Shown here in pieces: positions 30,002-33,193 of a stretch of 33,410 nucleotides of DNA. The stretch lies in NCBI GenBank assembly GCA_021838005.1, contig JAKCEK010000005.1, forward strand, positions 1-33,410, written 5' to 3'. Made by a program: the position numbers and the translations under genes. The number at the start of each line of letters is the position of its first letter. The first letter of the stretch is position 1. The notes under the pieces are model-generated. The model worked only from the letters and a program-made list of their open reading frames with translations. It ran no database searches and was not told where the DNA came from. This DNA is from Actinomycetes bacterium (lineage in GTDB: Bacteria; Actinomycetota; Acidimicrobiia; Acidimicrobiales; RAAP-2).

Positions 30002-30128
30002 ACAGTGCAGCAAGCGGGTCCGACGGGTTCGGGCCCCACCCGGCCACCGACGTGCGCCGTGGTACCGGTCCCCGAGTCCCGCAACCTGCGGCGGCGCCGA
30101 CGGCGTCGCGTCGAAGAAGGAGTGGGCT
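30002..30128 (+). promoter_or_regulatory. infC: Structured 5' leader of infC
   Basis: The octamer GGTCCGAC occurs at 29996-30003 and 30017-30024, a 21-base direct repeat. CGGGT/ACCCG can pair in the first half. A 5-bp stem CGACG (30098-30102)/CGTCG (30109-30113) with a 6-base loop ends 3 bases before the ribosome site AAGGAG (30117-30122). A regulatory role in IF3/L35/L20 control is possible. I cannot fold it reliably by eye. Confidence 0.4.
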
Positions 30129-30710
30129 ATCGCAACAACACCGGGAGACCGTCGCGTCAACGACCGCATCCGCGTGGACACCGTCCGGCTCATCGACAAC
30201 GAGGGCAATCAAAAGGGCGTGGTGTCGACCCGCGAGGCGCTGGCGTTGGCCCGCAGCCTGGACCTGGACCTCGTGGAGATCGCGCCGACGGCGCAGCCCC
30301 CGGTGGTGCGGATCATGGACTACGGCAAGTTCAAGTTCGACGAGGCCCAGCGGGCCAAGGAGTCGCGCCGCAAGTCCCAGAACGTGGGCATCAAGGAGAT
30401 GAAGTACCGGCCCAAGATCGGTGCCGGGGACTTCGAGACCAAGACGCGACTCGTCGAGAGGTTCCTCGGCGAGGGTCACAAGGTGAAGATCACGATCATG
30501 TTCCGCGGTCGCGAGTCGGCTCACCCCGAGCTCGGCAAGAGGATCCTCGACCGGATCGTCGAGCGACTGGCCGACGCGGCCCGGGTGGAGGCGGCGGCCA
30601 AGCTCGACGGGCGGAACATGACGATGGTGCTGGGTCCGGACAAGCGAACCCGGGCGAGAACGAGCGAGGACGCCACGACCGGCGCCGCGGACACGAGCGA
30701 GGAGGGCTGA
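30129..30710 (+). CDS. infC: Translation initiation factor IF-3, ATC start
   Basis: IF3 binds the 30S subunit, prevents early 50S joining and rejects non-canonical start codons. The conserved N-terminal motif RVNDRIR, the linker region after MDYGKF, and the C-terminal KITIMFRGRE domain are all present. No ATG, GTG or TTG lies in frame before that motif. The first GTG, at 30174, would cut it off. Instead ATC at 30129 has a perfect AAGGAG (30117-30122) with a 6-base spacer, giving 193 residues starting MATTPGDRR. Non-AUG starts (AUU in E. coli) are known for infC and allow IF3 to repress itself. The C-terminal tail is acidic and unconserved. Confidence 0.93.
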   Translation: MATTPGDRRVNDRIRVDTVRLIDNEGNQKGVVSTREALALARSLDLDLVEIAPTAQPPVVRIMDYGKFKFDEAQRAKESRRKSQNVGIKEMKYRPKIGAGDFETKTRLVERFLGEGHKVKITIMFRGRESAHPELGKRILDRIVERLADAARVEAAAKLDGRNMTMVLGPDKRTRARTSEDATTGAADTSEEG

Positions 30711-30711
30711 G

Positions 30712-30906
30712 ATGCCGAAGATGAAGACCGACACCGGCGCGAAGAAGCGCATCAAGATCACCGGCACCGGACGGCTGCGCCGGGGCAAGGCCTTCCGGGG
30801 CCACCTCATGGAGGGCAAGAGTTCGGTGCGCGCGCGGCGCCTCGGCCGCGAGGCCGACGTCGCGCCGGGCCAGGCCAAGCGCGTCAAGCGGATGATGGGC
30901 CTGTAG
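30712..30906 (+). CDS. rpmI: Ribosomal protein L35 (bL35)
   Basis: A 64-residue basic protein with the L35 signature [20 protein letters not shown] and later RAFRGH-like KAFRGHLM. It starts at ATG 30712, one base after the infC stop, with GAGGAGG just upstream. It is the middle gene of the classic infC-rpmI-rplT set. Confidence 0.96.
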
Positions 30907-30934: not shown

Positions 30935-31294
30935 ATGGCACGAGTGAAGAGGGCCGTCAACGCCAAGAAGCACCACAAGGCCGTCCTCGAGGAGGCCAAG
31001 GGCTACTACGGCGACCGCAGCCGGACGTTCCGCGCCGCCAACCAGGCCGTCCAGCACTCCGGGGTCTACGCCTTCCGGGACCGTCGGGCGCGCAAGGGCG
31101 AGATGCGCAAGCTCTGGATCCAGCGGATCAACGCCGGGGCCCGCGCCCACGGCCTGAGTTACAGCCGCTTCATCGCCGGGCTCAACGCGGCCGGCATCGA
31201 GGTCGACCGTCGCATGCTGGCCGACCTCGCGGTCACCGACGCCGCCGCCTTCGCCAAGATCGTGGCGCTGGCCGCCGACGCCCTGGCGAAGTAG
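30935..31294 (+). CDS. rplT: Ribosomal protein L20 (bL20)
   Basis: A 119-residue RNA-binding protein of the large subunit, needed early in assembly. It begins [15 protein letters not shown] and contains [13 protein letters not shown] and [20 protein letters not shown], the family signature. ATG at 30935 follows GAGGGAAGAGAG. L20 represses its own operon in other bacteria by binding the leader. The stop TAG at 31292-31294 sits in frame directly before the methyltransferase reading frame. Confidence 0.97.
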
Positions 31295-31300
31295 GCCGCG

Positions 31301-32110
31301 ATCGAGGCGCTGGGGGCCGGCCACCAGCGCGTCCGCCGGCTGCGGCGCCTCGCCGCCAAGCGGGCGCTGCGCTGGCGTGAGGGCGCGTGCGTCCTCGAGG
31401 GTCCCGACCTCGTCGAGGCGGCCCTCGCGGCCGGCGCCGAGCTCGAGGCGCTCTACGTCGACGCCGCCCGGGCGGACGACCCGCGACTCGAGGCGCTCGT
31501 GGCGCGCGCCCGAGACGCCGGCGTGCGAGCCTTCGCCCTCGCCCCCGGGGTGCTCGAGCGCGTGGCCGACGCGGTCACGCCCCAGGGGATCCTCGCCGCG
31601 GCCCGCCTGCCGGTGGCGACCCTCGAGGCGGTGCGCCCCGGCACGGTCCTGGTGCTGTGCGACCTGCGCGACCCGGGCAACGTGGGCACGCTTGTCCGCA
31701 CCGCCGACGCCACCGGCGCGGCCGCGGTGGTGCTCTGCGGCCCGGGCGTCGACCCGACCAACCCCAAGGCGCTGCGCGCGAGCGCGGGCTCGATCTTCCA
31801 CGTGCCGGTCGTGGTCGCCGAGCTCGACGACGCGCTCGCCGACCTGCGCGCCAAGGGCGCCCGGGTCCTCGCGAGCGTCGCGCGCGGCGGGGTCGACCCG
31901 TGCGCGTGCGATCTCACCGGGCCGTGCGCGCTGCTGATCGGCAACGAGGCGACCGGCCTCACCGAGGCGGACGTGGCGCGCTGTGACGGGTCGCTCACGA
32001 TCCCGATGGTCGGGCGCGCCGAGTCGCTCAACGCGGCGATGGCCGGGGCGATGCTCGCCTACGAGGCCATGGTCCAGCGCCGTCACGGGCGGGCCTCGCG
32101 CACCTTCTAG
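31301..32110 (+). CDS. TrmH/SpoU-family RNA 2'-O-methyltransferase, non-canonical start
   Basis: SAM-dependent methyltransferase with the knotted SPOUT fold, acting on rRNA or tRNA. Motifs are DLRDPGNVGTLVRTADA, LLIGNEATGLTE and IPMVGRAESLNAAMAGA. The substrate-binding N-terminal domain (HQRVRRLRRLAAKRALR, then VLEGPDLVEAAL) is clearly coding from about 31301 on. There is no ATG, GTG or TTG in this frame between the rplT stop and 31499, which would remove about 65 residues. ATC at 31301, with AGTAGG (31290-31295) 5 bases upstream, fits best; CTG at 31310 is the alternative. This gives 269 residues, a normal length. The end codon TAG starts the -10 element of pheS. Confidence 0.85.
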   Translation: MEALGAGHQRVRRLRRLAAKRALRWREGACVLEGPDLVEAALAAGAELEALYVDAARADDPRLEALVARARDAGVRAFALAPGVLERVADAVTPQGILAAARLPVATLEAVRPGTVLVLCDLRDPGNVGTLVRTADATGAAAVVLCGPGVDPTNPKALRASAGSIFHVPVVVAELDDALADLRAKGARVLASVARGGVDPCACDLTGPCALLIGNEATGLTEADVARCDGSLTIPMVGRAESLNAAMAGAMLAYEAMVQRRHGRASRTF

Positions 32111-32122: not shown

Positions 32123-33193
32123 ATGTCCGACGACCGCCCCGACCTCGCGGCCCTGGCCGACGACCTGGTGAACCGGGTCAACGCGCTGGGGTCCCTCGAC
32201 GCCCTGCGCGAGGCCGAGGCCGGCCTCGTCGGGCGGCGCTCGCCCTTCGTCGAGGCCCAGCGCCGCCTCGGCGCCCTCGAGCCCGAGGAGCGTCGGCGCG
32301 TCGGCGCGGCCCTCCAGGAGGCCCGCCGGCGCGTGGAGGGCGCCTTCGAGGCTCGCCGCGGCGTGCTCGCCGCCGAGCAGCGCCGTCGGGCCCTCGAGGC
32401 GGATCGGCTCGACCTGGGTGACGTGGTGGACGCGACGGTGCGTCGGCCCGTCAGGGTCGGCCACGGCGGGCTCATCGCCGCGACCCAGCGCGAGCTCGAG
32501 GACGTCTTTGTCGCCATGGGCTTCACCGTCGAGGAGGGGCCCGAGGTCGAGAGCGACTGGTACAACTTCGAAGCCCTCAACATGCCTCCCGCCCACCCGG
32601 CGCGCGGGCTGTGGGACACCTTCTACGTCGATCTCGGCGCGCCCGAGACCGTGGTGCTGCGCACCCACACCAGCCCGACCCAGATCCACCTCATGGAGCG
32701 CGCCACCGCCGCGGGCACCCTGCCGATCCACTCGGTGATGCCCGGGCGCTGCTTTCGCCGCGACACCCCCGACGCGCGCCACCTGGTGGCCTTCCACCAG
32801 ATCGAGGGCCTCGTCGTCGACGAGGGGATCACCTTCGCCGACCTGGCGGGCACCATCGAGTCGTTCACCACCGCGTACTTCGGCCCGGCGATCACGTCCC
32901 GGCTGCGGCCGGGCTTCTTCCCCTTCACCGAGCCGTCGGCCGAGTTCGAGGTCACCTGCACGGTCTGTTCCGGTGGGGGCTGTCGGACCTGCTCGATGAC
33001 GGGCTGGGTCGAGCTCGGCGGATGCGGCATGGTCGACCCCGCGGTCCTGGCCGCGGTGGGGATCGATCCCGAGCGCTGCCACGGCTTCGCCTTCGGCTTC
33101 GGCATCGACCGGTGCGCCATGATGCGCTACGAGATCGCCGACCTGCGGGCCCTGACCGAGAACGACGTGCGTTTCGTGGAGCAGTTCTCGTGA
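32123..33193 (+). CDS. pheS: Phenylalanyl-tRNA synthetase alpha subunit
   Basis: Class II synthetase catalytic subunit, 356 residues. A coiled-coil N-terminal arm (about 1-100) precedes the catalytic core with motif 2 (MPGRCFRRDTPDARHLVAFHQIEG, in pieces) and motif 3 (FGFGIDRCAMM). FTEPSAEFEV is followed by four cysteines (CTVCSGGGCRTC) seen in many bacterial PheS. ATG at 32123 has a weak G-rich upstream stretch. It overlaps pheT by 4 bases. Confidence 0.96.
   Translation: MSDDRPDLAALADDLVNRVNALGSLDALREAEAGLVGRRSPFVEAQRRLGALEPEERRRVGAALQEARRRVEGAFEARRGVLAAEQRRRALEADRLDLGDVVDATVRRPVRVGHGGLIAATQRELEDVFVAMGFTVEEGPEVESDWYNFEALNMPPAHPARGLWDTFYVDLGAPETVVLRTHTSPTQIHLMERATAAGTLPIHSVMPGRCFRRDTPDARHLVAFHQIEGLVVDEGITFADLAGTIESFTTAYFGPAITSRLRPGFFPFTEPSAEFEVTCTVCSGGGCRTCSMTGWVELGGCGMVDPAVLAAVGIDPERCHGFAFGFGIDRCAMMRYEIADLRALTENDVRFVEQFS

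Follow-up and report, generated by a model that had tools for sequence, protein, structure and literature searches.

In the window, by which we mean the whole stretch of 33,410 nucleotides analyzed here, the gene of a SpoU-family rRNA methyltransferase that adjoins rplT in the IF3 operon has no usable canonical start codon. The comparison with related genomes indicates that translation most likely begins at a weak, non-canonical codon where rplT ends, and the phenomenon, judged from the same comparison, extends well beyond the window. What the letters of the compared genomes show directly is that a canonical start is missing, where this happens and how widely it is conserved.

Five genes follow one another in one direction in this part of the window: infC, rpmI, rplT, the methyltransferase gene and pheS. 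All coordinates given here refer to the forward strand. The infC gene (30129..30710), which encodes IF3 and is recognized by its Pfam IF3_N and IF3_C matches, itself starts with ATC at 30129, 6 nt behind the Shine-Dalgarno-like (SD-like) sequence AAGGAG (30117..30122). All 35 loci of the genus that were read with infC have an ATC aligned with this one, and the SD duplex has a median of -8.0 kcal/mol over 80 genus loci, a value biased towards strong duplexes because the ATH codon was chosen by the quality of its SD. In many of the order loci L038-L061 that were read, the infC start is ATA, not ATC. The next two genes are conventional: rpmI (L35, named by its operon position) is an ATG-started ORF at 30712..30906, and rplT (L20, Pfam Ribosomal_L20) runs from its ATG at 30935 to its TAG stop at 31292-31294 (30935..31294). 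The last of the five, pheS (32123..33193), is again an ATG-started ORF, with a name taken from the operon and not from a family-library search. The source genome of the window comprises 1.85 Mb in 213 contigs and is 95% complete.

The methyltransferase gene shares the frame of rplT, and this frame is open from 31295 to the TAG at 32108-32110, over 271 codons. No ATG, GTG or TTG lies in it between the rplT TAG and the GTG at 31499..31501, which comes 68 codons in; consequently, the initial annotation was right that a canonical start is missing and that the first such codon comes late, and only its count of about 65 codons needs correcting. A methyltransferase start inside rplT is impossible in the window, the frames being identical with the stop between them. 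Behind the TAG there is a gap of 6 nt and then ATC (31301..31303), the likeliest start codon, from which the gene would extend over 31301..32110; the junction thus has no stop-start overlap of the NTGA type. The sequence AGTAGG (31290..31295), a weak SD-like stretch across the rplT stop, ends 5 nt before the ATC, at the positions that the initial annotation had given for it. A second candidate is CTG at 31310..31312, whose aligned codon varies across the genus.

Could the unusual start be an error? A wrong base from sequencing or assembly, which the initial annotation had proposed to check for, is excluded at ATC 31301, because all seven genomes of the window clade (the window included) carry the same ATC; they also share the CTG at 31310. 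The region behind it evolves as coding DNA does: over the 64 codons from ATC 31301, the window differs from six relatives 12, 27 and 49 times at codon positions 1, 2 and 3, and of the codon differences 43 are synonymous and 39 non-synonymous. Among the named relatives of the gene, that of the Actinobacteria bacterium 21-73-9 MAG is 93% identical; those of the Actinomycetes bacterium isolates WH2, WY1, BP8, JA4 and JA6 are 86-89% identical, and those of two Acidimicrobiales MAGs 43%.

As for the protein, translation of the full frame gives matches above the curated cut-offs to PF00588 (125.1 bits, cut-off 29.7) and to PF22435 (44.8 bits, cut-off 27). The latter is an MRM3-like substrate-binding domain, at residues 11-101 of the full frame (31325..31597), which agrees with the earlier description of a coding frame with a recognizable substrate-binding N-terminus. 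The gene can consequently be described as that of an MRM3/RlmP-like, SpoU-family 2'-O-ribose rRNA methyltransferase. The solved structure closest by sequence is 7qiu (E 5.5e-35), reported as B. subtilis RlmP, which makes Gm2553 (PMC12123411). In its domain architecture and its match to 7qiu, the protein resembles the A-loop methyltransferases RlmP and MRM3 (Gm2553) and RlmR (Um2552), as these are described in the same source (PMC12123411); what ties the enzyme of the window to G2553 of the 23S A-loop is this sequence similarity to 7qiu. The thiostrepton-resistance equivalog NshR/TsnR (NF000477) was not reached, at 70.9 bits against a cut-off of 425, nor was the RlmB equivalog TIGR00186, at 101.6 against 160.15. 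Where the gene is called tsnR, the name is a label that carries no functional claim.

How far does this arrangement reach? After removal of identical junctions, the comparison covers 82 loci of the genus, 51 from the rest of the family, 72 of the order, 15 of the class and 53 of the phylum. The genus loci come from 84 genomes searched, of which 82 were read, and the family loci from 51 genomes fetched out of 73; those of order, class and phylum represent parts of the genomes searched at these levels. Left out of the counts were L002, which has no rplT, L129 (family, genus g42), whose position could not be anchored, four phylum loci and one each of order and class whose N-terminus did not align, and 13 phylum loci without a methyltransferase gene behind rplT; five loci of named relatives (L165-L169) were read and stand outside the counts. 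Positions are numbered from V, the Val that comes first in the conserved sequence HQRVRRLRRL, so that ATC 31301 is at V-10 and CTG 31310 at V-7. Each locus was scanned from V back to the nearest upstream stop in the same frame for any in-frame ATG, GTG or TTG, and a gene without one is called forced. All P values were computed without regard to shared ancestry.

By this test, the methyltransferase gene is forced in 39/82 genus, 30/50 family and 19/71 order loci, in none of 14 class loci and in 5/36 phylum loci. The infC gene lacks a canonical start in the same sense in 11/72 genus, 20/32 family and 42/63 order loci. None of the other genes does: rpmI has a canonical start in all of 81 genus loci (one more ran off its end), 50 family and 71 order loci, rplT in all of 82, 50 and 71, and pheS in all of 77, 30 and 22, as well as in 20 longer loci of the same family genomes. 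No RlmB-like SpoU paralogue without a canonical start was met in 30 family loci. Given these counts, infC and the methyltransferase gene are the two, among five operon genes tested, that lack a canonical start in many genomes, and the two non-canonical starts that the initial annotation had noticed in one IF3 operon are not a peculiarity of the window. A control over junctions in general, which scored those with no canonical codon from -60 to +75, found 4/95 among other junctions versus 3/8 for the methyltransferase, a sample too small to weigh and one in which the pheS starts are not cleanly aligned. The five forced phylum loci (L247, L250, L291, L295 and L306) offer ATC/ATA, CTGA or ATT as candidates, and these distant cases may reflect a repeated origin.

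Within the genus, rplT ends with TAG in 81 of the 82 loci, versus TGA in 50 of the 51 other family loci, and the sequence around it, AAGTAG(G), looks as though it also served as a weak SD. The codons behind it have a clear pattern. At V-11 there is CTG in 45 loci, TTG in 3 and GTG in 4; at V-10, ATC in 56, ATT in 3 and GTG in 3; and at V-7, TTG in 30, CTG in 25, CTC in 14, ATC in 7 and other codons in 6. Taken together, 78 of the 82 loci have CTG, TTG or GTG at V-11 or ATC, ATT or GTG at V-10. The preference for CTG at V-11 exceeds that of the surroundings (45 of 52 Leu codons, versus 37 of 177 nearby). SD duplexes point to the same place: the starts proposed for the genus have a median of -4.2 kcal/mol (68 loci), compared with +0.6 at the candidate further down and -2.2 at random places. 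Residue entropies from V-13 to V-7 are 1.77, 2.71, 1.80, 1.61, 0.76, 1.93 and 0.51 bits; conservation climbs around V-11 to V-9, and the lack of a sharp edge at V-11 counts against the proposed start. On balance it is most likely that the genus start lies just behind the rplT stop and is mostly CTG and/or ATC.

Some loci depart from the pattern. In the remaining four, L097-L100, which form one clade of the genus, neither CTG nor ATC is found at V-11 or V-10, and V-7 is ATC, or in L099 GTC, a codon reminiscent of the sigR start. From V-9 to V+6 the genus codons have a GC3 of 0.705, versus 0.782 in the remainder of the gene, with TCA and CGA commoner. A plain ATG at the aligned position in relatives had been named in the initial annotation as an observation that would speak against its reading, and some relatives do have a canonical codon there, which tells in part against it: such a codon stands at V-11 or V-10 in 10 of the 82 loci (GTG in seven, TTG in three). 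These loci mark the place of the start and do not make the ATC of the window canonical. In addition, an in-frame ATG, GTG or TTG lies at or behind the rplT stop in 39/82 loci, and inside rplT in four more. In 30 of the 39, it is a TTG at V-7, which lies three or four codons downstream of the start that we propose; since TTG is enriched there (30/74 Leu codons, versus 10/177 nearby), some genomes may simply use it.

For the window itself, AUC 31301 is the likeliest start on this comparative evidence and CUG 31310 comes second; either one would be non-canonical, in line with the pair of candidates first put forward. Three points favor the AUC. Six genus loci (L012, L015, L026, L032, L033 and L094) have ATC as the only start-like codon at V-11, V-10 and V-7; the weak SD duplex precedes the ATC, with -4.1 kcal/mol versus -2.4 for the CTG, as it does in the genus medians given above; and the relatives with GTG or TTG have it at V-11 or V-10. 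Counting against it is the frequency of NTG at V-7, found in 55/82 genus loci.

In the rest of the family the junction takes another form, one with a stop-start overlap. Here, in 49 of the 50 loci outside the genus, from 17 genera, a CTG overlaps the rplT TGA and lies in the methyltransferase frame, which continues through it. Unlike the window, these loci thus have the 4-nt NTGA overlap, in every case as CTGA. The distance from stop to V is 23, 29, 32 or 41 nt, always in one common frame, and the SD duplex at these CTGs has a median of -5.9. A start further up, inside rplT, was considered for these loci and rejected: 29 of the 49 are forced, their frame being free of canonical codons as far up as the in-frame stop, and in another 16 the nearest such codon lies 184-400 nt upstream. 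Of the remainder, three have TTG or ATG directly after the stop and one is open to the edge of the locus. The family also includes L125 (genus g42), in which none of ATG, GTG, TTG, CTG, ATC, ATT and ATA occurs between TAG and V, and ACG is the nearest start-like codon.

Is the CTG merely a by-product of the last codon of rplT? That codon ends in C in all 49 CTGA loci and is TCC in all 40 cases of Ser, where a change to TCG or TCA would be synonymous and would yield GTGA or ATGA; no other fourfold rplT column is all C (0/45, the highest at 0.89, with 45 of the 49 genomes aligned). The argument is weakened, because order, class and phylum loci without a frame overlap also have C before the rplT TGA in 28 of 34 cases (49/49 versus 28/34, Fisher p 0.004, with kinship ignored). 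A naive codon-usage argument (log10 P about -25) was dropped for the same reason, C before TGA being common anyway, as the 28/34 and the 78 of 139 ORFs in general illustrate. Counting the NTGA overlaps from open frames alone (CTGA 26, ATGA 12, GTGA 11, others 10) is uninformative, because open frames are not starts.

On a FastTree phylogeny of L20 plus the methyltransferase, the CTGA loci all lie on one side of a single branch with a support of 98. The same tree needs 10 changes for the CTG class, 8 for the ATC class and 4 for the canonical class, or at a minimum, counted by starred branches, 6, 5 and 1. Further out, 39 order loci have an NTGA in frame, 32 of them as CTGA and 7 as GTGA, with a canonical codon further down in 8/32 and 1/7, and among the class loci there are five TTGA, four CTGA and one GTGA. 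A canonical start is therefore tolerated in some lineages, as the canonical codons of the genus, the GTGA and TTGA of order and class, and the unforced class loci all indicate.

What would such a start do? The explanation that we consider best, and probable as a whole, combines a non-canonical start at the rplT stop, low-rate initiation coupled to rplT, and a predicted sensitivity to IF3. The window clade would start at AUC 31301, most of the genus at a CUG or an AUC, and nearly all other family loci read at the CUG overlapping the rplT UGA (CUGA). On reaching the end of rplT, ribosomes or 30S subunits would initiate on the methyltransferase gene, helped by the weak SD-like stretch over the stop, and the ordinary initiator tRNA with its CAU anticodon would start translation at a low rate. 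A special initiator that reads AUC was sought among the matches to an initiator anticodon-arm pattern and, within that scope, rejected. Of the three matches, only one lies within a tRNA; its anticodon is CAT, and it is the one initiator tRNA found in this 95% complete genome.

The part assigned to IF3 builds on published work. IF3 is reported to repress initiation at codons other than ATG, GTG and TTG in E. coli and in Streptomyces, where infC starts with ATT and ATC, respectively (PMC5472188), and excess IF3 is described as inhibiting SD-less re-initiation, even at AUG (PMC2268962). Because IF3 destabilizes initiation at such codons, the output of the methyltransferase gene is predicted to be low, and it would rise when IF3 is short, as for infC. 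The sequences, then, suggest that IF3 holds the output down, and that the IF3 level sets it, as the initial annotation had proposed, is predicted by analogy with this biology as these two sources present it (PMC5472188, PMC2268962). A bolder and more tentative version, which we are inclined to doubt, would see infC and an A-loop-type methyltransferase gene of these bacteria, probably Acidimicrobiales, as a two-gene IF3 regulon, in which the IF3:30S ratio sets the amount of this large-subunit methylating enzyme and selection acts on the non-canonical nature of the start, not on the identity of the codon.

The nearest competitor accepts the weak start and gives it another purpose. A catalytic enzyme whose gene sits between those of ribosomal proteins and pheS would have to be kept far below L20, so that the start would only set stoichiometry and its sensitivity to IF3 would be incidental; we give this an even chance of being right. 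It fits the same data, and it accounts for the canonical starts of rpmI, rplT and pheS as opposed to that of the enzyme gene, for the switching among CTG, ATC, GTG and TTG, and for the GTGA and TTGA of other lineages. It has more trouble with the persistence of CTGA through the 17 genera of the family, since a GTG with a weak SD would do equally well, and with the fact that infC, in the same operon, has the same class of start. Another view moves the genus start to the codon at 31310, as a canonical UUG that drifted to CUG in some lineages. The frequency of NTG there and the surplus of TTG among its Leu codons speak in its favor, yet the codon is CTC, ATC, TTA, CTA or GTC in 27/82 loci, the site has no SD duplex (the median of +0.6 given above), other early codons such as TCA and CGA are unusual too, and a Glu upstream of it, at V-9, is kept in 72/82 loci with GAG/GAA variation. 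We regard this view as unlikely, and the start of the window would be non-canonical even then.

The two remaining alternatives would dispense with a non-canonical start altogether, and both seem to us very improbable. Read-through of the rplT TAG into an L20-methyltransferase fusion, which the initial annotation had entertained, draws on the agreement of the two frames in the window and in 58 of the 82 genus loci in all; it founders on the other 24, in which the gene lies out of the rplT frame, as it does in the NTGA frame of 49/50 family loci, and on the variation, among relatives, of the two codons that separate the ATC from the stop. Translation only from GTG 31499 has the merit of using the first canonical start in frame, and it would produce a short SPOUT protein, in which the PF22435 domain is lost and the SpoU methylase domain alone is left. 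The residues upstream of this GTG are strongly conserved (His in 79/82 and four Arg in 82/82 loci), and we reject it as the start with the same firmness as the fusion.

The proposed non-canonical start beside the rplT stop, with its predicted low rate and sensitivity to IF3, has counterparts among known systems. The pcnB gene of E. coli is not known to lie in the IF3 operon. With its AUU it offers the parallel of a second chromosomal gene with an inefficient, output-limiting start, as reported in PMC1780047 and PMC9410913. The autoregulation of infC through AUU or AUC in E. coli and Streptomyces, as outlined in PMC5472188, shares with the present case the operon, the non-canonical start and the class of codons discriminated by IF3. 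Unlike infC, which encodes IF3 and has a clear SD here, the methyltransferase gene encodes an enzyme, lies further down the operon and has its weak SD beside a stop, and its start is often CUG. The GTC start of Streptomyces sigR, described in the same source as repressed by IF3, is likewise a lineage-conserved start of an actinobacterial gene other than infC (PMC5472188); in contrast to sigR, with its extensive SD and experimental proof, we deal with another gene and another codon, and with comparative evidence from 17 genera plus that of the window. The family CTGA loci further resemble the ATGA and GTGA junctions of termination-reinitiation in their 4-nt stop-start overlap (PMC10666635), except that the overlapping start is CUG and that the window has a 6-nt gap with no overlap. 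Common to the methyltransferase gene and to the class of infC, pcnB and sigR is that no ATG, GTG or TTG is able to start the full-length protein. If experiments bear this out, the gene would belong among those with IF3-discriminated starts.

The kind of phenomenon is thus already known from infC, pcnB and sigR; new are the gene itself and its deep conservation. Among open-licence PubMed Central titles and abstract openings, no report of the start codon of this gene or of its CTGA form was found. Start switches from AUG to CUG are reported as very rare, 2 of 61,358 (PMC5622118), and because of this rarity, as given in that source, it is unusual that so many species should have retained a CUG. 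A practical consequence is that gene finders restricted to ATG, GTG and TTG would be expected to truncate or extend the methyltransferase across the group.

Very few genes beyond infC have been characterized as dependent on starts that IF3 rejects, according to the account in PMC5472188. If the reading given here is true, these bacteria would add another gene besides sigR and pcnB, one kept over 17 further genera and placed inside the IF3 operon itself, and they would make it possible to test directly whether a chosen set of genes is under IF3 control.
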